Positions 4,655 through 20,432 of a DNA stretch of 27,232 bases are shown piece after piece; position 1 is the first letter of the stretch, and every line of letters begins with the position of its first letter. Both the position numbers and the translations under genes were made by a program. The notes under the pieces are model-generated. The model was not told the DNA's origin. It worked only from the letters and a program-made list of their open reading frames with translations, and made no database searches. The stretch is from a virus: positions 1-27,232 of IMG/VR virus record IMGVR_UViG_3300037847_002405; one strand, written 5' to 3'.

Positions 4655-5140
4655 TCAGTTCTTTTTCAGATGCCTCATTGGGTTCCTGCCTCCCGCCATA
4701 CGCCGGTCTGAGATCAAGCCGAGCGCCTCCTTCAGCATCACCAACAATCGCTTGTCCCGAGACACATCCAGTCCGTCGATCACCACATCCTCGACAAGCC
4801 GCTGATGCTCCTGACCGTATCGCTTCCTGACAAGGGCCAACGTCCTGCCGTACCGCATCAGGGACTCTGACGCCATTGAGTCAGCGTTAGCCTCACCAGC
4901 TCCTGCCTCATACCTGAGCGGCTTGGTGAAGATGCCTGCCTTTGCCGCCTGACTCAGCAGATACTCTCCGGCCTGATGTTCCTGCAAAGTCAGCAACCCG
5001 TCGATCAGATACCTGTCGATCAGGGTCTGATCCATGACCCTTGCCCGAGGCACAGTGCCGCCTTCGATCATGACGGCGTGACGCTGATGCACCTCTGGAG
5101 AGCCGAGATCGCTGTACTTCTTAGAACTCATCAAAGTCAT
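4655..5140 (-). CDS. Hypothetical helical protein, 161 aa (distantly like DUF6456-type proteins)
   Basis: The start overlaps the end of the primase-helicase gene by 20 bases; AAGGGG sits five bases before ATG 5140, which I prefer to ATG 5131. After a polar N-terminus the protein is nearly all helix: LIDRYLIDGLLTLQEHQAGE, YLLSQAAKAGIFTKPLRYEA, SLMRYGRTLALVRKRYGQEH, LVEDVVIDGLDVSRDKRLLV. The order 'AGE..L..A...G......Y...L..v..G......LL..AL' resembles alphaproteobacterial DUF6456-like regulators by eye. The similarity is weak and needs a profile search. Position after the primase suggests replication or its control. Confidence 0.7.
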   Translation of the reverse strand: MTLMSSKKYSDLGSPEVHQRHAVMIEGGTVPRARVMDQTLIDRYLIDGLLTLQEHQAGEYLLSQAAKAGIFTKPLRYEAGAGEANADSMASESLMRYGRTLALVRKRYGQEHQRLVEDVVIDGLDVSRDKRLLVMLKEALGLISDRRMAGGRNPMRHLKKN

Positions 5141-6863
5141 CCCAGCCCCTTCCCTTCAGCTTGCTCAGGTTTGTCCTTGGCGCTTCGATCTGCTTCTGGC
5201 TGTACTGGCCTGTCGATATGTCATAGTCGAGCAATGCCATGCCCTGCTGGCCCACCCACTTGAAGCGTGACTTCCAGCAATGAACCTCGACGCCATCCTC
5301 GCCTCTATGAACCGTGATGCCGAGATCGGCCTTGGCGAACCATGCCGCCGAGCCTGAGATGTTCATGCCCTTGGGGACGGAGTAGGAGCCGTCTTCTTTC
5401 GGGTACATCTTCTGAGGGTGCGCCACAAACCAGACATGGATGGAGTGGGCCTTGGCGAAGCTGGTGATGCGGGTCAGCATCTGGCTGATACTGCTATGCT
5501 CCTCGCCGCCAGTGCTTTCGATGTAGTTGTAGGGGTCGATCAGCAGACCGTTAGCGCCGCGCATGATCGCCTGTTTTGTCCTGTCGATGATTGAATCAAT
5601 GGTGCTGAGGTTTCCGTCCTTTGACTCAAGGAACATAAAGTGGTCTTCGATGAATGACATCGCCTCACTCAGCTCATCTTCGCTCATGCGCTCTTTGATG
5701 CCGCTGTAAAATGGCTTGCCTGTAATCTTCTCTGCGAGCTTGGCAATGTGCATAGCAGGGGGGTTCTCAAACGAGCAGACCGCAAACTTCCAGCCATCGC
5801 GCTGGGCTAGGTTGATCATGATCTGGTCAATGAACTCTGACTTACCGCTACTGGGCATACCAGTTACTATGGACAACTGACCTTCTGCAATCGTGAACAG
5901 CTCGTCAATGCTGTCGAAGCCTGTAGAAGCGCCCCGTCCATGCCCATTCGCGTAGATGTTTTTTACGTCATCGAGATAGTCTGACGCGCAGTACACGCCG
6001 GACAGTGGTACGGGTTCGGGGTTGTCGAACAGGCGCTTGGTTTCCTCCGCGCCGAGCTTCTCGACGGCGTCATTGCCATCCTTCACTGAGTCAGGGAACT
6101 TGACCCGCCAGCACTTGGCCCTACCCACTCGACGGGCAATCTCTTCTGCCAGTGCCTCGCCTGCCTCATCTGCATCTGTCGCCAGCACAATCTTCTTGCA
6201 ATGCTCCAGCCGCTCGCGCTCGTTCCAGATGAAGTTGAACTTTTTGTCTTCCTCTGGGTCGATACGGTGCGACGACACCTTGATTGGTGCGCCATTCGGG
6301 CATGACACCGCCTTGATCCCCACAGACGCCAGCGCAATCACATCACACTCGCCCTCTACAATGGTCAGCTCTTCTTCGCCATCATCTATCTGCTCAATGC
6401 CGTAGAAGGCTCTGGGAGCGCCGTCACAAGTAAATCCCTTACCGTCGATACTCCGCCACTTGATAGCGGTAGGGTTCTCTCTGGGGCCGTACACGAAGCC
6501 CACAGCGGCCTTCTCCTCGCCCCTAAACATCTTTGTGCCGGTCGTCATGGCAGGGAGCGAGTCGAGATTGTCGAGAGTGACGCCCCTGCCTGCGAAAAAT
6601 TCTTTGATCTGGTCTACGTTGTTGTTGAGCTGGGTGGGTAGCTTGACTACCTTTTTCGGTTCGTTCATGTGAGCCTCGTAAAATTTTTTGCGCCGGAACG
6701 AGCCTGACAAGCCACAGTGGTGACAGTGATACAGTGCGTGTTCTGGCTTTATGGTGATGGAAAAAGTCTTGATGTTTTTCTTCTTTCTTGCGTCCGAGCA
6801 ATCGGGGCAACGTGTTCTAGCGTCTTGATTGTGACCCAGAACAAACTCTTCCAAGCTGTTCAT
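5121..6863 (-). CDS. Primase-helicase (Twinkle / T7 gp4-like)
   Basis: A bifunctional replication protein that primes lagging-strand synthesis and unwinds DNA as a ring. A zinc ribbon has Cys19, Cys22, Cys47 and Cys50. The TOPRIM domain shows EGECD (from Glu170) and the acidic pair in ATDADEAG (Asp230, Asp232). The RecA-like helicase has Walker A GMPSSGKS (335-342), Walker B LLIDPYN (Asp443) and a sensor histidine in AHPQK (482). At 580 residues it matches phage gp4-like proteins. The C-terminus is acidic and ends in Phe (GWDDFDEF), as in T7 gp4, where the tail contacts the polymerase. GGAGG lies about 11 bases before the ATG. The gene follows an AT-rich gap with palindromic repeats that may control it or mark an origin. 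Confidence 0.95.
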   Translation of the reverse strand: MNSLEEFVLGHNQDARTRCPDCSDARKKKNIKTFSITIKPEHALYHCHHCGLSGSFRRKKFYEAHMNEPKKVVKLPTQLNNNVDQIKEFFAGRGVTLDNLDSLPAMTTGTKMFRGEEKAAVGFVYGPRENPTAIKWRSIDGKGFTCDGAPRAFYGIEQIDDGEEELTIVEGECDVIALASVGIKAVSCPNGAPIKVSSHRIDPEEDKKFNFIWNERERLEHCKKIVLATDADEAGEALAEEIARRVGRAKCWRVKFPDSVKDGNDAVEKLGAEETKRLFDNPEPVPLSGVYCASDYLDDVKNIYANGHGRGASTGFDSIDELFTIAEGQLSIVTGMPSSGKSEFIDQIMINLAQRDGWKFAVCSFENPPAMHIAKLAEKITGKPFYSGIKERMSEDELSEAMSFIEDHFMFLESKDGNLSTIDSIIDRTKQAIMRGANGLLIDPYNYIESTGGEEHSSISQMLTRITSFAKAHSIHVWFVAHPQKMYPKEDGSYSVPKGMNISGSAAWFAKADLGITVHRGEDGVEVHCWKSRFKWVGQQGMALLDYDISTGQYSQKQIEAPRTNLSKLKGRGWDDFDEF

Positions 6864-6867
6864 GTTG

Positions 6868-6896
6868 TTGACTACCTCCTTTTTTTCTGCTATTTA
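6868..6896 (+). promoter_or_regulatory. Possible + strand promoter in the primase leader
   Basis: TTGACT (6868-6873, five of six for -35) is followed after 17 bases by TATTTA (6891-6896), a weak -10. A transcript would begin near 6903, at the first palindromic repeat, and would meet the + strand terminator at 7007-7032 after about 120-130 bases. No + strand gene lies between. Weak evidence taken alone. Confidence 0.25.
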
Positions 6897-6902
6897 CTTC
6901 CC

Positions 6903-6975
6903 CTAGTAATTTCCTAGACTAGAATCTTCCTAAGTTTTAAACCTTGGTAAGTTACTAGGTCTAGTAAGTTACTAG
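6903..6975. repeat. Four 15-bp palindromic repeats, operator or iteron cluster
   Basis: Copies lie at 6903-6917 (CTAGTAATTTCCTAG), 6919-6933 (CTAGAATCTTCCTAA), 6944-6958 (TTGGTAAGTTACTAG) and 6961-6975 (CTAGTAAGTTACTAG). The last is a perfect palindrome with 7-bp half-sites around a central G; the others depart from CTAGTAA-N-TTACTAG at one to several positions. Start-to-start spacings are 16, 25 and 17 bases. Copies three and four share a 14-bp identity (6947-6960 and 6964-6977). The stretch is AT-rich against its neighbours and lies just upstream of the primase-helicase gene. A dimeric regulator's operators or origin iterons like those of lambda are both possible. Confidence 0.75.
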
Positions 6976-7006
6976 GTTCATTGAATGACTCCTTTTTTTG
7001 AGCTTC

Positions 7007-7032
7007 GCCCCTCCCAGAGAGGGGCTTTTTTT
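7007..7032 (+). terminator. Intrinsic terminator, + strand only
   Basis: GCCCCTC (7007-7013) and GAGGGGC (7019-7025) form a perfect 7-bp stem with loop CCAGA, followed by seven Ts (7026-7032). On the - strand no T-run follows, so it stops only rightward transcription, although both flanking genes run leftward. It overlaps the stop codon of the 83-residue - strand gene. Confidence 0.85.
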
Positions 7033-7282
7033 ACGCAAGCTCAGTCAGCTCATCCATCACCATCTGGGCGACAACTTTCTGCTCAGGTAGGCTCAAAAGA
7101 AGCATCTCGTCGAGTGCATCCTGTAAACCGGAAGGGTATCCAGCGGTGTGGCAATGTGATGTAAAAGCTGGGGATTTCAGATACTTAGCGGCGGCATCAC
7201 GGTCATCTGCGTAGTTGCAAACCAAGTCCTTGATGGCTTGATTGATGACCTTGCTGTAGATGACCCTATAGGTGTCTGACAC
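7031..7282 (-). CDS. Hypothetical protein, 83 aa
   Basis: Lies in the rusA operon and overlaps the end of the resolvase gene by 17 bases. The product is helical and soluble (YRVIYSKVINQAIKDLVCNY, then ALDEMLLLSLPEQKVVAQMV) with a short Cys/His-containing middle (FTSHCHTAGYPSG). The family is not recognised. Its stop codon falls in the T-run of the + strand terminator. A partner of the resolvase is possible by position only. Confidence 0.7.
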   Translation of the reverse strand: MSDTYRVIYSKVINQAIKDLVCNYADDRDAAAKYLKSPAFTSHCHTAGYPSGLQDALDEMLLLSLPEQKVVAQMVMDELTELA

Positions 7283-10728: not shown

Positions 10729-11156
10729 TGGAGATACACCTACCAAAGAGCGAAGCAGTGAGGCGGATGAGAGTGTTACAGTCACTGTGTCAGGAGTTTC
10801 CGCAAGTGGCACCTCAGATACTGGAGGTGAATTTACAGTCGAAGCACGGGGTGACACTGGAGGTGAAACCTCTGCGGACTCACCGCTCCAGACCGCAAGA
10901 AAACTACTACAGAAAGTGGTGCAACGGATTCGCAAAATTCTGCGGCTTGACCCCTGACGAAATGCACAACGAGCTTCTCTGCCAATGCTATGGGTCAGAG
11001 GAGATCGACAGCAAGTTTGGAGTAGTTCGTCGTCCGGTGAAGCGTAGCAACGATGCTACCCGTGGTGACTACTCAGAGCTGATTGAGACATTGTGCAGAG
11101 TGGCGGCACAGATGGGTTATGACGTACCACCCCCTGCTATGGAAGAGACAGCGTGA
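10728..11156 (+). CDS. NinB-like recombination protein (tentative), 142 aa
   Basis: ATG 10728 overlaps the previous stop (TGATG), and AAGGA lies upstream. The N-terminal 50 residues contain paired helices and strands (EAVRRMRVLQSLCQEFPQVA). The central RTHRSRPQENYYRKWCNGFA followed by KFCGLTPDEMHNELL matches the pattern R-S-x-x-Q-N-x-Y-Y...G-x-x-x-D-E-x-H common to NinB-type and related phage recombination proteins. The C-terminal part (RSNDATRGDYSELIETLCRV, then YDVPPPAME) also fits that group. Assigned by motif and neighbourhood only. Its stop overlaps the GTG of the next frame. Confidence 0.6.
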   Translation: MEIHLPKSEAVRRMRVLQSLCQEFPQVAPQILEVNLQSKHGVTLEVKPLRTHRSRPQENYYRKWCNGFAKFCGLTPDEMHNELLCQCYGSEEIDSKFGVVRRPVKRSNDATRGDYSELIETLCRVAAQMGYDVPPPAMEETA

Positions 11157-11749
11157 TTTGCGGCGAAGCATTAGAGCTACCTTTGTTTCCAACAAAGGAA
11201 GGGGGTGCAAGTCCCACCTCGCCGCTCCAAATTAAATTTGTGGAGATTGATAAGGGGGTGGCGGCAAGCCTTTACAGGAAGCACCACTACCTTGGGGACA
11301 AGGGCTTTTTACATCAGTACACCTATGGGGGTCTTTGGCATGGCGAGGTTATCTGCGCGATTACTTACGGGATACCTAACGCTCACTCCATAAACGGGCT
11401 ATACGACAAACACAATCAACACGGGGTGCTAGAAATAACAAGATTGGTGTGTGACCCACGTTGCCCCAAAAACACGCCCTCAAGAATGATCGCCATCACG
11501 ACAAGATTGTTAAAAAAAATCTACCCATTGAAGCTGTTGATTAGCTACGCAGACACGGCTCAAGGCCATGATGGAGGCATATACAAAGCGTCTAACTTCC
11601 GTGCTCACGGCCTGACTGCGAAGAAAACAGATTTCTTATTTCCAGACGGTTCTATACGGAAAGGCAGGGGCATCAAATACTCAGAGCTGGAGGGAGAGTG
11701 GGTTCCGCGATCCCAGAAATACCTATTCAGCAAAAGGATTGAAGAATGA
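11153..11749 (+). CDS. Mom-like DNA-modification protein (GNAT-like), up to 198 aa
   Basis: Phage Mu Mom, a GNAT-related enzyme, modifies adenines to block restriction. Matching features here are YRKHHYLGDKG (41-51), YGGLWHGEVICAITYGIP (58-75), LEITRLVC (Arg97), NTPSRMIAITTRLLKKIYP (Ser110), LLISYADTAQGHDGGIYKAS (Asp134, Tyr144) and the ending VPRSQKYLFSKR. Family length is about 200. The start is unclear: GTG 11153 overlaps the preceding stop (GTGA), but residues 3-26 would come from a tRNA-like sequence at 11160-11229, and the core domain begins near residue 27. GTG 11240 is an alternative but lacks a ribosome site. No com-like regulator is visible beside it. Confidence 0.75.
   Translation: MICGEALELPLFPTKEGGASPTSPLQIKFVEIDKGVAASLYRKHHYLGDKGFLHQYTYGGLWHGEVICAITYGIPNAHSINGLYDKHNQHGVLEITRLVCDPRCPKNTPSRMIAITTRLLKKIYPLKLLISYADTAQGHDGGIYKASNFRAHGLTAKKTDFLFPDGSIRKGRGIKYSELEGEWVPRSQKYLFSKRIEE
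11160..11229 (+). tRNA. tRNA-Gly(UCC)-like element with shortened D-arm
   Basis: GCGGCGA (11160-11166) pairs perfectly with TCGCCGC (11219-11225), followed by discriminator T11226 and CCA 11227-11229. The anticodon arm CTTTG-TTTCCAA-CAAAG (11181-11197) has anticodon TCC at 11188-11190, U33 and A37. The known bacterial glycine identity elements G1-C72, C2-G71, G3-C70, U73, C35 and C36 are all present. Only 14 bases separate acceptor and anticodon stems: AGC-ATTAGA-GCT forms a 3-bp mini D-hairpin with no GG. The T-arm GGGGG/CCCACC pairs with one bulged A, and its loop TGCAAGT has G where U55 is expected. It may be a decayed tRNA, a working noncanonical tRNA or a tRNA mimic. It overlaps the Mom-like frame. 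Confidence 0.75.
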
Positions 11750-11958
11750 CAGGCAAATTTACACTAGAGCTAGAGGGGGACGCCTATGCAGACGGCCTCG
11801 CTACTGCGGAAAAGTTTTTGGCAATTATTCAGGGAAGGCTGACCAAAATAGAAGAGCTGGTCGAGGAAAACCTTGAAGCTGTGGAGAACCTTGCTGGGGC
11901 GATTGAGTCGCTAGAAGACGCCAGAAAGGCGCTACACGATGCTAGTCAGGCTGAGTAA
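11746..11958 (+). CDS. Small coiled-coil protein, 70 aa
   Basis: ATGA-coupled to the Mom-like gene. The product is acidic and almost entirely helical with heptad-like spacing (LTKIEELVEENLEAVENLAG, AIESLEDARKALHDASQ), so a coiled-coil oligomer is likely. There is no membrane segment or cysteine. Function unknown; its end overlaps the start of the following nuclease-like gene by 20 bases. Confidence 0.7.
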   Translation: MTGKFTLELEGDAYADGLATAEKFLAIIQGRLTKIEELVEENLEAVENLAGAIESLEDARKALHDASQAE

Positions 11959-12658: not shown

Positions 12659-13104
12659 TAGATTCTGCCTTCAGCCTTGTGATGCTGAACATTGATCAGG
12701 TGCTGATTGATGATGTCTTCCTTGGACTGACCGTAATACTGCACAGCCAGCATCTCGTCTAGCAGGATGGTGTTTAGGCTTCTGTCCTGAAAGCCCTCAA
12801 CGTCAGGCACCTCTGGCATATACAGCTCGCCAAGTATTCTGCCGAACTTGCCCTTACGATCCATGTGCGTCCTGATCAACAGCTCAGAACCCTCTGGCAC
12901 CATCTGCGTCACATAATCTTTGGCGAGAAGGCCAAGAGCCTTCAATTCTGGGGTTCCTCCGCGAGTCTCTGCCGTGTCTATGCCATACAGTCGCACCGAC
13001 TGGCTCTTCAGCAGAACGTCAAATCCGGCGTCTATCGTGAGGATTATGCTATCTCCGTCTACCACACGCTCACAGGTAGCGTGGTACAGCCAGTCCATCT
13101 TCAT
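12658..13104 (-). CDS. Thermonuclease-like (SNase family) protein, 148 aa
   Basis: Staphylococcal-nuclease-type enzymes cut DNA and RNA with calcium. The key sequence VVDGDSIILTID (14-25), VRLYGIDTAETR (37-48: Arg38, Asp43, Glu46) and DRKGKFGRILGELY (82-95: Arg89) contains the equivalents of the catalytic Asp, Arg, Asp, Glu and Arg. The C-terminal helix region (LNTILLDEMLAVQYYGQSKE) is typical of phage versions. No signal peptide is seen, so it acts inside the cell or is packaged. The start is ATGA-coupled to the giant protein upstream, i.e. it is a late gene; host DNA degradation or genome entry are possible roles. Confidence 0.88.
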   Translation of the reverse strand: MKMDWLYHATCERVVDGDSIILTIDAGFDVLLKSQSVRLYGIDTAETRGGTPELKALGLLAKDYVTQMVPEGSELLIRTHMDRKGKFGRILGELYMPEVPDVEGFQDRSLNTILLDEMLAVQYYGQSKEDIINQHLINVQHHKAEGRI

Positions 13105-16100
13105 TTTGCTTTACCCACTATGTCACTGTATCTGGAATTAAACCTGTTCATCGTGTCATCAATGCGTTTCTGTATTAACTGCTCTCTCTCAGCCAGCTCT
13201 ATTGCTCTGCTGGGGGTTGCGTTCTCCATCTGCGCCCGTATTTGCTTCTGCGCTTTCCTCAGCGCCCTAAGCCGCTTTTCAGTCGCCTTTAGGACTGGCA
13301 ACATCCTGATATATTCGTTGTTTTCGCGCCTATACTTGGCCCTCTCTGAGCCAGTAAGCACATCGTTAGCTTGTCGGTCTTTCTGCTGTAGGGTTTGCCT
13401 GCGCTCGTAGTACTTCTCAGTATTTGCGCCTTCTGTTATTTCGCCATAAATCCTTCTGACGAACGGAATGTCCTTCAGCTCAACGTCTTTTGCCGGATCA
13501 GCAATGGCCTCCGGTAGCTTGAAGAATGTTCTTTCCGCAAACGTGCCAGCACCACCAAGTCCAAACCCAAGCAGATAGCTGATGGCGGATGGAGGAACCT
13601 CCAGAAGCCCCGGCTCCGATTCATTACCACCTGTAAATTCGCTCACAACCTCAGTAATGTTTTGCCATATCTGAGGTGTATTACTAAACGCTCTGCGCGA
13701 CAAAGGCTCTTGCGCCCCACCGAACGGGCTGTCTGGCGGATAAATGGGCGAGCCAAAATAGTTTTCGTTCATCACCAGCTCCAGCACTGGCTTTACAACT
13801 TGCGGTGTAGCGGTTTTTGCCACAGACCCGAGGTAGGTTTCGCTAGAGGATGTGCCTAGCGGGTTAAAAGACCCCAAGAAAACATTGGTTGATCTTACCG
13901 CCGCATCTTCTGGAGAAAGGTTGCCAGAGGAAACAAGATACGCATTCTCACCCAGATTGTGGAAGACGTTGTAGCCATACGGTAATGGTATCGTGACGTA
14001 TTCTTTGGGATCGCCGCCCCACAGGGCCGCTGGAATAATGATGTTCCTGTCTCTGACGTATGTCGGTATTTTTTCGTACTCATCATCACCCAAAATTGAC
14101 TGAGCTATTGACGTTGTAAGAGCGCCAAAGGCCATGATTCCGCCCACAATTCCCTGCTTTGTTCTTGATGAGTTTTTGCTGAATACATTTAGACCGCGCA
14201 TTGTGTTGACGGTGCCTTGCACAGATGCGTTGAAGAACAGGTACAGGCCGTTCAATAGCTGGCCTGAGTTGCCCTTGCGGTTGAAGTTTACAGTCAGGTT
14301 TTTGGCGAGAGTTGCGGCCTCTTGGATAGCTTCGTTTCTGGGTATGCCCTTTTCGATCATGGCATCCCTTGCCGCAACAAAAGTTGCAAGCCTGACGCCA
14401 TTCTCCACTGCTGAGTTGTAGTCGTCGATAAAGTCTAGGGTTGACCTAAACCCCTTCTTCGCGTTGCCCTTAAAGGTTCCGCTTGCCATCTCTATCATGG
14501 ACTCAATGTTTTTCTTCTGTTGCTCTGGGTCTTTTGAGTGGAACCAGTCTGTCTTTGCGCCGGTCTTTATGAACTCGTTAAAGTCTCTAGCATCTTCAGC
14601 AGACAAGCTGTCAGGGTTTCTAAATCCCTTGTAGAAGACTCCGATAGACGGGATTGTCCTCTTTAGAACCTTGCCGACGATACCTTTTGCATTGACTGCC
14701 TTGCCTCCGACCATCGACTGCTCGCCAATAATGTTATAGATGGCAGTCTGCACATCCCTTGGGAAGTTACCCATAACAAACTCAGGGTTGAGACTTGTAT
14801 TGACGTAAGACATGAATCGCGTAATGCCGTTGAGCTTCTCAACCAAAAACCCAACGCTTTGTGCGTCTAGGTTTAAGACGGCTTTACGCAAGTCTGGGTT
14901 CTTGAACTCAACGAAATACTGCTCGCCATCAACCTTCACACCAAGAAGCTCTTGGCCTGTAGGATTAATTACGGGGTCTTGTATGACCCGCACCTTCTTC
15001 ACCCAGTTCTTTTTGTCCGCCTCGCCTGATATGTCAGTTTTTCTTTCGCCATACCTGCTCGCGTCAGGTCCAACGTAGGTGTATGAAGTATCGAATGCTC
15101 GCTTGTAGCGCGGATTGTCTGGACTGATCAGCTCCCACACCTCGTCATTCGGGTTCTGCTGGATCAGGTCAATCAGTCGCTTACCAAATGATGTGTTCTT
15201 TACAGCTCTAGCCGCTTGAGTGCCACGCTCAGAGACAATGGTTGCAAAGGGCGATATTGCCTCTGTCTCACGGCCCATCGTGCGCTTCACTTCTTTACCA
15301 ACCACGCTCAAGCTACCACCAGAGCCAGCCGTTCTCGCATCGCTCTCTGCGGCAATGTCTTCTTCCTGAGATATGCCTCTCAGTGGGGTGTAATACTTGA
15401 AGTATCCGTCTAAGAATGCCCTTTCTTGCTCTGTGATCAGACCACCCTTTTGGCTAATAGCCAGCGTGGTGCTGTTCATCTTATCTATCTTACCCGCCAA
15501 GGCAGACATAACCTTGCTTCTGTCGTTGCCGCCAACCCACTCGCCCTTGGCGTCATTCCATGTCATGCCGTAATCGGCAAGCATCTTTCTTTTGACGTAA
15601 GCATCTGTCAGCTCGATCTTGTTCCATTTGCCCGACCCAGCATCTGGCATCGACGGATTTATCTTTCTGACTCTCGCATTTCTTTCTATGGCATGGCGCA
15701 ATACAAGAAACTCGTCCATCTGATCAAGGGTGACATCATTGTCGTTCATCTCTTTCAGCAGAGGCTTTAGCTCGTTTTCGGTAAAGCTCCTGTCAAATGC
15801 CCCTATCTTCCCTGCCAGCGTTTCTTCGCCAATGTATGCACTCTCTGATGATCTCAGGCGAGGCAAACCTGCCGCCTCACGGGCCGCATTGATGGAGTCT
15901 TCTATCGCCTTGAGATCGGTCAGCTTGTCTTGAACCTCAAAGACAATACGCTTTAGGAAGGACTTAGGCGGTGGTGTCGTAAAGGAGGGGTATGCTCCGC
16001 TTTGATCGGCAAAGCCAGAGTTGATTGAGTTCGCCATTGGGCCAGCTCTAAGCGTTGCCATGCCAATATCGTCAGGCTGATTGTCAACGGCATATTCAAT

Positions 16101-19100
16101 GACGCCGTCCAACTGATTCTGGCTTGAAGAAATTACATTCCTATCTGCGGCTTTTCTGGCGAAGGCAATAACATTGTCCTTCTTTGCGCCTACAGCACCA
16201 GCGACCTCCTCCGACAATACCTGCTGTGCATCCACCATCTCTGCATTCTTTGCCAATACCAGAGGGCCAACTTGTATGACCTCATCAGCCTTAGTCACCA
16301 TCATTCGGTGATTAGACCTGTCGTAAAAATATCCGTGACGCTCCGGGTCCATGCCCACCTGCGTCCATTCGCCGTCTTTTCTGAGAGAAGAGGCAACGGC
16401 CTCCTCTGCCAACGCCATTGTTTCTGCTTCGCTCCTTTCGATTAGTTTGCCAGAGACTCTGGCGAATGTTGATTTGTTCTTTGAGGCATCTGCGACTTTG
16501 AGCGCGGGGGTCACAAAAGTGGGGAACGTAACGTCTGTCACGCTGGCAAACGGCCTATAAGATGTAAGCTCTGACTTGTCTCGTCCAGTTTTTTCATTGA
16601 TCAAATGTTTTTTGTGTCTACTTTTGTCCTTCTTGGACAGCTTGTTTGTCCTTATATGCAAAGTCGGAACCCATGTCCCGTAGCCTGCGTAAGCGGGAAT
16701 ATCTAGCCTTAGCTCAACCGCCGTCCCTTCCTCAATAGGCAGGTTTATCCTGTCTTTTTGATCTGATGCCAAAGCATTGCTCATCGCCGCTTCTGTCTCT
16801 GGAACAGGCACGAACTCAAACGGCAAAACTGGCTTGTATTCGTCAATCAGATCGTTGTATTCACGCTTCAGCTCCAGCATACGCTGTTGCCTTTCTTCCA
16901 GCGGCAGTCCCTTGATCTCCTCAAGGGTTGCGCTTATTCGCTGTGCCGCCTCTGTCAGTTCTGGGATGCGAGTTGTTACGTCTTTAAAGTTTAGATTGCG
17001 TCTGTCTACAAGACTAAACATCAGGCTATCTATCCCCGCGTCCTGCATCAATGTGTCAACCTTGACAGGAGATGATCTACCCCCGCCCTGCTCTGCAAGT
17101 GTTCTAGCAGACCTTTCCGTGAACTCTGGGTCATCTGTCTCGATAACAGTTCTGCCTGTCGGCGTATCAACAGTTGCTGAATAGAGCGCATCACCCTCGT
17201 CAGTGCGAACTTGAATGCCGTCAACTACTCCCCTTCTGTCAATAAACCGGCCTGTGCCTCTTTCGAGACGGTACAGTGTCCTAACAACACCCCGCTCCCT
17301 TTCTCCTATGCGCCCTGCCTCAAGGTCATTCATGAACTGGGTAAATGAGGTGTAGTCTGGATCAACCTCTGTCGCCGTGCCGACAAGACCCTTGAAGAAC
17401 TTAACGATCTTGTTGATGATTGATCTGGGCTTGCCTGCCAGCTTTGCAGGTTTATTGTCAATTATGATGCGGCCTGTCACCGCATCTCTAATCATCTCAG
17501 CAATAGCCTCTTCTGAAACAGCGACACGGTTAAGGCTTTTTTCTGGATTGTTTGGGTCTGTATAGGTCTGCGTTGCCCACTCAAGGTACGTCTGATCTGT
17601 GTCAACCTTTTTGTATCTTGTAGACAGCCGCTCAAGAAGCTGAAGCTCTGACTGGGTGATGAGGTCAATCTCTCTGAGTGCGTGTACAACCTCATGATTT
17701 AGAACATCAACAACCGCCGCCTCTATGTTATCGGCCTTTGGCGACTGAGCCATGATCGCATCAACTGCAACCTGAACCACTTTAGCCCCATCTATCGAAT
17801 ATCCGCCTTGAGGCTGAACATCTAAGTTTCTTTCGGCGTCCGCAAGACCCTTGAAATAGACATTACCGTCCACATCTCTTTCGACATTATTTATCAGGTT
17901 GGTGACAACAGGCGTTACCTCAGTAAGACCAAGCTGTTTTAGCCTCTTCTCCATCGCTCTCTGGAGCATCCCTTTCGTTGCCGCGTCCATACCCTTTGGC
18001 GTGGTAGGGGATGGGAGCGCAAGAGCCTCGCCCTCCACCTGCTCCTCTGCAACGGGAGCTGGCTCTTTCTTGGGGCGTAGCTTGAAGAGGGGGATGTTGG
18101 TGGGGGAGCTAAATCGTGGTAGCTGTCTTAGCTTTTGATAGAACAACTGGCGCTCTGAGGCCGTGAGATCACTAATCGACTGATCTCTTCTCAGCTTTCT
18201 GCCAGTAAACCTTGCCGCCAAATTTTTTACTTCTGGCGAGTTGAGGGGAGACGAGATGTTCTTTCTGTCCAGTATCTCTTGTATCTTATCGACGCCAAAC
18301 TCTGGGTCACCCATCAGCTCTTTGCTGGGAATATAACTGCCGCCCTTGCGACTGTTGGCATCCCTTGCAAACTCAAACGCTTCTGCGGCAGAGGCAAACT
18401 GAACCCGCTTGCGAGCAGGCTTACCCGCCTCTCTAGCGGCCTGTCTTTCTGCGGCTGTGCTCGGCCTGTCAAATATCAGATCGCCTGAAGGCTCAAGCCT
18501 GCCATCAACACTCAGGCTCATAGGCTGTACAGCAAACTTACCGTTTACCTGACTAGGAAGTGCCGCATAGGTGTCAACACGGAACGCTCCCGCCTCATAC
18601 TCTGCAAGCCTGCCAACATCCTTGCCTATCTCTCTGCGAATCTCGCTGATGGCAAATCTATTGCTAGGGACTTTTCCTTCCTTGATTCGCCGCACGTTAA
18701 TGCGCTGGGAGACGGTTTGCTTTTTGCGGGGAATGTTGGCTTCGATAACTTTCTCTGCGGAAAGCTGTGGGTTGAAACCTTTTTCGACGGTAGTGCCACC
18801 GGCATAATCTGCGGCTTCTGAGGTGTATGACAGAGACTCTGGGCCAAGTGCTATACGGCCCACTCTCTGTAGGGTGCTGATTTGCTCTGGTGAGTAGTTT
18901 TCTTTGGAGTCAGCTATTACTGCTCGGTTACTCTGGAATATGTTTTCTTCGACAGTCTGCCCATTGAGGGCCGCAACGGCTGGCTGTAGCTTCAGCCTCA
19001 TTCCTTCTGAGACGGGACGCCCATAGGTGTTGCCCTTGCTGTCCCTGATGGCAACCATTCCGGGCTGACCATCTATATCGTCTTCTATGTAAAACTCTGG

Positions 19101-20432
19101 CTCAACAGGGAAGCTGTCTCCCATTTGCTGGACAACGGTTCTCGCCATGCTTTTGTAAGAGTCTGCGGTAGGCACCCGCTGGTTGTATCCTCTGATCAGA
19201 GCGCGTTCTTCACGGCTAAGGTCTTCGCCTGCGCGATCCTTCTCCATAGCCATCATTTCTTCTTTGGTCGGCTCTACAATGATGCCGTTAATATCAAGAA
19301 GTTCTGGGAGAATAATTGGGTCTTGCGTGGGGACTGGGCCGACTGAGGCTAATTGCGAAGCTCTTTCTCTTCTCGCCGCCTCTGCGTCTTCTATATTTTG
19401 ACGTAGGATGGTTTCTTCTGCTATGCGCTCTTCCCGCAAAGGCTGTACGGGGTCTTCTTCCGTGCCAGATATACCTCGTCTTCTGCGTGTGGCTAGATTA
19501 ATAGCGACATCAAACAATGCGCCAGCCGTACCACCGGCTACAAAATCCACCGCAAAAGAGTCGCCAATCTCTATATCAGGATTGATGTATTCTTTGAGAA
19601 CGGCGTCCGTGGCGATCCCAGCAAGAACCTCCTGTACCGCCTCCTCTCCGCCTTGCAGTGCCGCACTTTTTAAGTAGTCGCCCAGCTTCTCTATCGCTTT
19701 GGGGTTTTTAGCCGCCGCTCCGCTGATTCGACGCATAACCCTAAACGCTGGGCCAATAAACGGCAGTCCCTCTGAGGCGCCTATCGCCGCAAGTCTTTTC
19801 GATGCGGCTTCGTAGTCCTCATCGTTTACAATCCTGCCGCTTTCAATCTGCCGTGCAGTCTCCTCCATGCCTGACGCTATATTAGAGCCAGCACCCAGCA
19901 AAATACTTGTTCCTAAACCTAAAATGCCGCCAACCAGTGTGCCTACACCGGGGACAACGCTACCTATTGCCGCACCAGTAACTGCCGCACCACCAAAACC
20001 AAGCACAGAACCCGTTACGTCTGCGGCTAGTCCAAGCGTGGAATCGTCGTATTCTTCGTCATAGCCAAGTCCGGTTCTGACGCTTTCTGCGATGGCCCGA
20101 TTGCGCTCTACAAGCTCCTCGTCCTCTTCAAAGCCATCCCTGAAAAGAGACTGTAGACCAGCGGGGGCTTGACCCAAAAGAGTAGCGGCAGAGCCAACTG
20201 TTCTTTGCCCGAACTCTGTTATGTCATCGAAAAGACCAGTCTCTTCTTCCTCCTCTTCCTCTGATACAGGCTCAGTTATGCTGACCTCTTCATCTGGCTC
20301 TTGATTCTGATCGGACTGTGATTGCAGGTAGTTGTATTCTGCAAACTCAAAAATTTCTCGTTCTGATGCGCCCTCTGGGTGATTGATTCTTAGTATTCTT
20401 CCATCTGGAACACGAACATCTGATACAGGCAT
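13101..20432 (-). CDS. Giant polyvalent/ejection protein with HExxH motif and LPD38-like region, 2443 aa
   Basis: AAGGGG lies eight bases before the ATG. The N-terminus (DGRILRINHPEGASEREIFE) is a short domain seen at the start of other large phage ejection proteins; an acidic tract and a Gly/Ala-rich hydrophobic region (about 125-185) follow. VLNHEVVHAL places an HExxH zinc-protease motif at His913-His917. LYLFFNASVQGTVNTMRGL near 2065 matches the LPD38 domain of large polyvalent proteins, and a hydrophobic stretch (GIVGGIMAFGALTTSIAQSI) follows. The C-terminus is a charged helix. Such proteins travel in the virion and enter the host with the DNA. It fills a third of the window, and I see no second enzyme motif with certainty. 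Confidence 0.85.
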   Translation of the reverse strand: MPVSDVRVPDGRILRINHPEGASEREIFEFAEYNYLQSQSDQNQEPDEEVSITEPVSEEEEEEETGLFDDITEFGQRTVGSAATLLGQAPAGLQSLFRDGFEEDEELVERNRAIAESVRTGLGYDEEYDDSTLGLAADVTGSVLGFGGAAVTGAAIGSVVPGVGTLVGGILGLGTSILLGAGSNIASGMEETARQIESGRIVNDEDYEAASKRLAAIGASEGLPFIGPAFRVMRRISGAAAKNPKAIEKLGDYLKSAALQGGEEAVQEVLAGIATDAVLKEYINPDIEIGDSFAVDFVAGGTAGALFDVAINLATRRRRGISGTEEDPVQPLREERIAEETILRQNIEDAEAARRERASQLASVGPVPTQDPIILPELLDINGIIVEPTKEEMMAMEKDRAGEDLSREERALIRGYNQRVPTADSYKSMARTVVQQMGDSFPVEPEFYIEDDIDGQPGMVAIRDSKGNTYGRPVSEGMRLKLQPAVAALNGQTVEENIFQSNRAVIADSKENYSPEQISTLQRVGRIALGPESLSYTSEAADYAGGTTVEKGFNPQLSAEKVIEANIPRKKQTVSQRINVRRIKEGKVPSNRFAISEIRREIGKDVGRLAEYEAGAFRVDTYAALPSQVNGKFAVQPMSLSVDGRLEPSGDLIFDRPSTAAERQAAREAGKPARKRVQFASAAEAFEFARDANSRKGGSYIPSKELMGDPEFGVDKIQEILDRKNISSPLNSPEVKNLAARFTGRKLRRDQSISDLTASERQLFYQKLRQLPRFSSPTNIPLFKLRPKKEPAPVAEEQVEGEALALPSPTTPKGMDAATKGMLQRAMEKRLKQLGLTEVTPVVTNLINNVERDVDGNVYFKGLADAERNLDVQPQGGYSIDGAKVVQVAVDAIMAQSPKADNIEAAVVDVLNHEVVHALREIDLITQSELQLLERLSTRYKKVDTDQTYLEWATQTYTDPNNPEKSLNRVAVSEEAIAEMIRDAVTGRIIIDNKPAKLAGKPRSIINKIVKFFKGLVGTATEVDPDYTSFTQFMNDLEAGRIGERERGVVRTLYRLERGTGRFIDRRGVVDGIQVRTDEGDALYSATVDTPTGRTVIETDDPEFTERSARTLAEQGGGRSSPVKVDTLMQDAGIDSLMFSLVDRRNLNFKDVTTRIPELTEAAQRISATLEEIKGLPLEERQQRMLELKREYNDLIDEYKPVLPFEFVPVPETEAAMSNALASDQKDRINLPIEEGTAVELRLDIPAYAGYGTWVPTLHIRTNKLSKKDKSRHKKHLINEKTGRDKSELTSYRPFASVTDVTFPTFVTPALKVADASKNKSTFARVSGKLIERSEAETMALAEEAVASSLRKDGEWTQVGMDPERHGYFYDRSNHRMMVTKADEVIQVGPLVLAKNAEMVDAQQVLSEEVAGAVGAKKDNVIAFARKAADRNVISSSQNQLDGVIEYAVDNQPDDIGMATLRAGPMANSINSGFADQSGAYPSFTTPPPKSFLKRIVFEVQDKLTDLKAIEDSINAAREAAGLPRLRSSESAYIGEETLAGKIGAFDRSFTENELKPLLKEMNDNDVTLDQMDEFLVLRHAIERNARVRKINPSMPDAGSGKWNKIELTDAYVKRKMLADYGMTWNDAKGEWVGGNDRSKVMSALAGKIDKMNSTTLAISQKGGLITEQERAFLDGYFKYYTPLRGISQEEDIAAESDARTAGSGGSLSVVGKEVKRTMGRETEAISPFATIVSERGTQAARAVKNTSFGKRLIDLIQQNPNDEVWELISPDNPRYKRAFDTSYTYVGPDASRYGERKTDISGEADKKNWVKKVRVIQDPVINPTGQELLGVKVDGEQYFVEFKNPDLRKAVLNLDAQSVGFLVEKLNGITRFMSYVNTSLNPEFVMGNFPRDVQTAIYNIIGEQSMVGGKAVNAKGIVGKVLKRTIPSIGVFYKGFRNPDSLSAEDARDFNEFIKTGAKTDWFHSKDPEQQKKNIESMIEMASGTFKGNAKKGFRSTLDFIDDYNSAVENGVRLATFVAARDAMIEKGIPRNEAIQEAATLAKNLTVNFNRKGNSGQLLNGLYLFFNASVQGTVNTMRGLNVFSKNSSRTKQGIVGGIMAFGALTTSIAQSILGDDEYEKIPTYVRDRNIIIPAALWGGDPKEYVTIPLPYGYNVFHNLGENAYLVSSGNLSPEDAAVRSTNVFLGSFNPLGTSSSETYLGSVAKTATPQVVKPVLELVMNENYFGSPIYPPDSPFGGAQEPLSRRAFSNTPQIWQNITEVVSEFTGGNESEPGLLEVPPSAISYLLGFGLGGAGTFAERTFFKLPEAIADPAKDVELKDIPFVRRIYGEITEGANTEKYYERRQTLQQKDRQANDVLTGSERAKYRRENNEYIRMLPVLKATEKRLRALRKAQKQIRAQMENATPSRAIELAEREQLIQKRIDDTMNRFNSRYSDIVGKAK

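Follow-up and report, generated by a model that had tools for sequence, protein, structure and literature searches.

Multi-site operators are already known as a kind, a classical case being those of phage lambda, OL and OR, where several nearly palindromic sites for dimers are grouped in two regions of the genome, each of them by a promoter. The palindromic iterons of the lambda replication origin lie inside the O gene, at one place. The locus described here belongs to the window, that is the whole 27,232-nt stretch analysed from the IMG/VR virus record IMGVR_UViG_3300037847_002405, and its palindromes, which are conserved and probably serve as docking sites for a protein, are carried at two genome places (array 1, in the window, and array 2, beyond its end). 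They resemble OL and OR in the occurrence of near-palindromic, putatively dimer-binding sites at two places, each near a predicted promoter. They differ from them in having 4-7 sites, repeated every 16-17 bp on the two sides of an AT-rich centre, in that these sites do not overlap the promoter but come after it, in their location at replication and virion operons, and in that no CI/Cro-like repressor was identified. Four palindromic sites near replication genes are also shared with the lambda origin, but the present arrays are intergenic, found at two places and provided with a tiny AT-rich centre. Another comparable system is the alpS array of prophage CGP3, composed of 24 copies of the TTAAnnG repeat in the promoter region of one operon, where the phage protein AlpA binds; together with an actin-like filament, it links the DNA of the phage to a structure of the cell (PMC4446434). 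The likeness lies in the repeat array in a promoter region and in the phage protein bound there, for which a candidate exists here; the present repeats are instead 15-bp palindromes at two places, and the connection, if any, would be a membrane anchor.

The phage group concerned is mostly unstudied. One module of virion genes is common to its array-bearing members and to the pelagiphages HTVC023P and HTVC027P, and the transcriptome paper on HTVC027P describes all the early genes of this phage as being of unknown function (PMC12753301). No arrays were seen within the stretches read of HTVC023P, HTVC027P, DSL-LC04, CRP-901 and Pag-Yong1. The literature searches found no description of such an array system, nor of the gene-switching mechanism of the array-bearing phages. 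As far as these searches showed, the pairing of a replication array with a late-operon array, the gene-less unit made of promoter, array and terminator, and the possible tail-anchored binder are new.

The initial annotation of the window had reported four palindromic 15-bp repeats in a gap of about 170 bases next to the primase-helicase gene. These repeats are real, starting at 6903, 6919, 6944 and 6961 (steps of 16, 25 and 17 bp), and the gap, located between two minus-strand genes upstream of the primase-helicase gene, measures 167 bp (6864-7030; Table 1). If a site may depart from CTAGNANNNTNCTAG at up to two of its ten defined positions, four sites are found within 75 bp of the window, a number reached in none of 1,000 dinucleotide shuffles, three sites being obtained in 4 of the 1,000. 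The full motif had been noticed nowhere else in the window, which is right for these 27 kb, but the impression of a single copy is misleading, since the window is a fragment and the near-identical G001 and other relatives carry the second array beyond its end. A six-codon upstream reading frame inside array 1 (MNLVTY*) is probably due to chance, its start codon being lost in L004.

Table 1. Coordinates of the array 1 elements and of the genes considered in the window
Feature	Position	Strand	Remark
129-aa Myb/GcrA-like HTH protein, proline-rich linker, C-terminal hydrophobic helix	3424..3813	+	candidate array binder
161-aa protein downstream of primase	4655..5140	-	conserved
Primase-helicase (Toprim + DnaB_C, phrog_239)	5121..6863	-	
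Predicted sigma-70-like promoter into array 1	6868..6896	+	consensus match only
Site 1, nearest the primase gene, CTAGTAATTTCCTAG	6903..6917	.	kept in relatives
Site 2, CTAGAATCTTCCTAA	6919..6933	.	
AT-rich array centre, GTTTTAAACC	6934..6943	.	AT-rich in relatives too
Site 3, TTGGTAAGTTACTAG	6944..6958	.	
Site 4, CTAGTAAGTTACTAG	6961..6975	.	perfect palindrome about its central base
Intrinsic terminator after array 1, GC hairpin + 7 T	7007..7032	+	same strand as promoter
83-aa protein upstream of array 1	7031..7282	-	conserved, no known family

Comparison with 75 related primase-helicase loci, all from records of uncultivated phages, revealed that the array between the 83-aa gene and the primase gene is kept in relatives with 72-100% primase identity, among records with upstream DNA, and is also present in L118 (70%). 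The 15-bp sites follow each other in steps of 16-17 bp and are arranged 2+2, 3+2 or 3+3 around an AT-rich centre, whose length is about 10 bp for the window and its close kin and 10-20 bp in relatives; the conservation of spacing among relatives, proposed initially as a check, thus extends down to about 70% primase identity. Over 172 half-sites, the consensus is (C/t)TAG-D-A-M, the fifth position being T, G or A and never C, as expected for half-sites read by a protein, and followed mostly by A and then mostly by C or A. This degeneracy, which is not compensated inside the site, points to a dimeric DNA-binding protein. The array therefore displays the repeated, degenerate and two-fold symmetric sites with regular spacing that characterise multi-site operators.

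Array 1 is also placed at a promoter in all 19 array-1 sequences, as predicted from sequence only. In the window, this element combines a -35 TTGACT (6868-6873), a 17-bp spacer, an extended -10 TG (6888-6889) and a -10 TATTTA (6891-6896), with a predicted RNA start at about 6903, at the array edge. The TTG core, the 17-bp spacer, the extended -10 TG and the TA of the -10 are invariant alignment columns (19/19), and a generic scan did not have this element in its list. On the plus strand of the window it lies in the start region of the primase gene; its maintenance in L025, L026 and L115, despite a weak or lost primase ribosome site, argues that it does not merely arise from that sequence. The terminator that follows array 1 is kept in the 12 relatives displayed (12/12) and in the alignment of the locus; the predicted transcript would end after about 130 nt and the promoter drives no evident gene, a unit that an ordinary operator leaves unexplained. 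A conserved promoter-like element, TGTCAAGG...TANAATC, stands in front of array 2, some 17 bp away from its first site and with an unclear -35 part, and in some relatives (L114, L120, L202, L207) the array itself contains a terminator-like hairpin.

Such a short unit could be read as one acting through its RNA, the transcript folding into a long hairpin used as an antitermination leader or a small RNA. Its promoter and terminator are conserved and the predicted array-1 transcript of the window folds better than shuffles (z -4.3), but when whole sites were permuted and inverted within their arrays, the folding was no worse than with the natural arrangement (mean percentile 0.38, 18 arrays). A hairpin is thus expected from any palindrome array and this control revealed no selection of an RNA fold beyond the DNA sites; nor did array 1 match any Rfam family. 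A role of the sites as DNA is consequently preferred, and we consider the RNA reading very unlikely.

The main rival to an operator system is a replication origin at array 1, in which an initiator would occupy the palindromes, the AT-rich centre would melt and the RNA starting from the array edge would prime or activate replication, as in phages whose origins depend on transcription. The initial annotation had suggested such a lambda-type origin, and palindromic iterons near replication genes are indeed present. The array adjoins the primase-helicase gene, as do other CTAG palindromes in the distant relatives G015, L066 and L126, and a predicted promoter fires into the AT-rich centre. However, such an array is also found in front of the virion operon, the window and its close kin have an AT-rich centre of only about 10 bp, and no array is found at this place in G013 and G014 (58% primase identity). 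The GC skew, also proposed initially as a check, was dropped as origin evidence as it only follows gene direction. We regard an origin, to which the skew, the short centre and the second array bring no specific support, as an unlikely, though serious, explanation.

In longer relatives, array 2 lies 10-12 kb from array 1, after the small terminase gene and ahead of the terminase/virion operon. The clade records that span its place all have it (G001, G002, G003, G004, G021 and many terminase contigs), and both arrays are found within one record in G001, G002, G003, G004, G021 and L115. Every exact copy of CTAGNANNNTNCTAG in 13 array-bearing records falls in one of the two arrays. A scan for two tandem sites in 2.9 million viral contigs matched 35 contigs; in 34 of them, marker genes of the phage group accompany array 1 or array 2, the 35th (L131) presenting an array-2-type sequence at a contig end. 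The same scan in bacterial and archaeal genomes gave three matches, two unrelated ones and a MAG that includes a stretch of this phage, and a host operator of this type was thus rejected. The MAG contig, L236 (PBMQ01000020.1), is labelled Euryarchaeota and contains the phage, with a 95% identical terminase and array 2, a probable case of misbinning. In Psittacicella hinzii (L235, 5035-5065), three tandem 16-bp copies of CTAGCAAGCTACTAGA are apparently unrelated to the phage.

The deep relatives G015 (45% primase identity) and L126 (44%) also have two arrays at the same two places, both made of CTAGTA-type palindromes. This joint change of both arrays points to one trans-acting factor, and a single protein thus probably acts on the two. 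Other repeats were observed at the array-2 place: an AAGG-N5-CCTT-type palindrome in G013 (L220, 659-785) and G014 (L224, ~11640-11800), two genomes devoid of both array 1 and a Myb-like gene, and GATCAGGTAATTACCTGATC-type repeats in L202 (2300-2890), L207 (5830-6530) and L199 (2300-2740).

Array 2 directly follows the small terminase gene and could accordingly be seen as a packaging site (pac or cos) for the small terminase, array 1 being a copy or a decoy. This explanation appears extremely improbable, as it accounts neither for array 1, which all close kin retain, nor for the promoters that face the arrays. Upstream of array 2, after the small terminase gene, several hundred bases of non-coding DNA are conserved (e.g. 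G021 43780-44200, reverse) and include the elements CCCCCACCCCCCC, TATATACATAGT-like and CTGTAGACATGT; a packaging site or additional regulatory sites may be located in this DNA.

The occurrence of the sites at two places, each faced by a predicted promoter, favours a control of transcription joining replication and virion genes. We give about even chances to the reading in which arrays 1 and 2 are the two operator loci of a single dimeric DNA-binding protein encoded by the phage, through which the replication module and the late operon would be coupled. Several dimers, spaced 16-17 bp from one to the next, would line up to the left and right of the short AT-rich centre, just downstream of the promoter that fires into the array; their occupancy would shut or gate this promoter and block the polymerase from crossing the array, and the build-up of the protein would link the late operon, through array 2, with the short array-1 transcript and the read-through into the primase gene. 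The sites, their period, their occurrence at two places and the conserved promoter and terminator sequences are read directly from the DNA, and from them we infer the binding, the dimerisation, the direction of the effect and the identity of the binder. The initial proposal of an operator cluster of dimer sites is therefore strengthened by the degenerate half-sites, the fixed period and the predicted promoter facing each array, the origin that it offered as an alternative having gained no specific support. The operator, origin and membrane-docking readings are not mutually exclusive.

The 129-aa protein, put forward in the initial annotation as a possible binder, is the best candidate for this role. 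It reaches the cut-off of the Pfam Myb_DNA-binding family (25.3 bits for 24.4), remains below the gathering score of Pfam GcrA (18.9 bits for 26.9) and matches Myb and GcrA structures, its top fold match being the GcrA structure 7ye1. It shares an N-terminal Myb-like HTH with GcrA and the phage GcrA homologs, such as that of phiCbK (PMC3556154), and differs from GcrA by its score below the Pfam cut-off and its predicted C-terminal membrane helix. The D5-like regulators of phrog_323 are matched, through the HTH, by 19 of the 19 aligned Myb-like homologs; in the window protein, the likeness to these T5 D5-like regulators is limited to a 40-residue stretch over the HTH, the remainder being different. 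The Myb-like gene was found in all 21 relatives with a CTAG-N7-CTAG array and in none of the 24 without it, among relatives with enough sequence, an association confined to one clade that could reflect a single gain or loss. Some arrays occur apart from this candidate: no Myb-like gene lies in the 5.7 kb covered for the array-bearing L118, and none could be detected in the sequence searched from G015 and L126, whose arrays are of the CTAGTA type. At the place occupied by the Myb-like gene in other array-bearing phages, L118 encodes a 132-aa possible winged-HTH protein (995-1393). Another candidate, the 161-aa protein encoded downstream of the primase gene, was rejected as it also occurs in relatives without the CTAG array and matches neither a Pfam family nor a known structure.

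The 22 distinct homologous sequences of the Myb-like protein all present a strongly hydrophobic C-terminal segment (KD19 2.07-2.55), and in the structure model an HTH predicted with confidence is joined by a disordered linker to a single long helix at the C-terminus. The protein may hence be anchored in the membrane by this helix, as a predicted tail-anchored DNA-binding phage protein. The arrays would then be anchoring sites through which it holds the phage DNA at the membrane, organising replication or keeping the genomes in place. The hydrophobic segment, the modelled architecture, the co-occurrence of gene and array and the presence of two arrays per genome are consistent with this reading; yet L118, G015 and L126 speak against this putative binder being the sole one, and anchoring does not need sites at promoter starts. 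We find it distinctly unlikely. Quite improbable, too, is an extended version in which the protein, bound to arrays 10-12 kb apart, would dock the genome at the host membrane and join replication with late transcription or packaging in one place, as a centromere-like or docking system made of an HTH and a membrane tail. For the phi29 membrane proteins p16.7 and p1, a role in moving replicating phage DNA to the membrane has been proposed (PMC4974454); the likeness concerns this proposed outcome, and p16.7 works via terminal protein and single-stranded DNA, not via site arrays. Should the anchor prove real, it would point to a means by which a phage positions its DNA at the membrane. Since the half-site is defined and a candidate binder exists, how the putative operator system controls the replication and late genes becomes directly testable in vitro.

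Elsewhere in the window, the early region contains a tRNA gene (1226-1296, Rfam), a Mom-like DNA modification protein is encoded at 11153-11749 (phrog_1384), and a single 2443-aa ORF occupies positions 13101-20432, its size and position indicating that it probably encodes a very large virion-associated protein.
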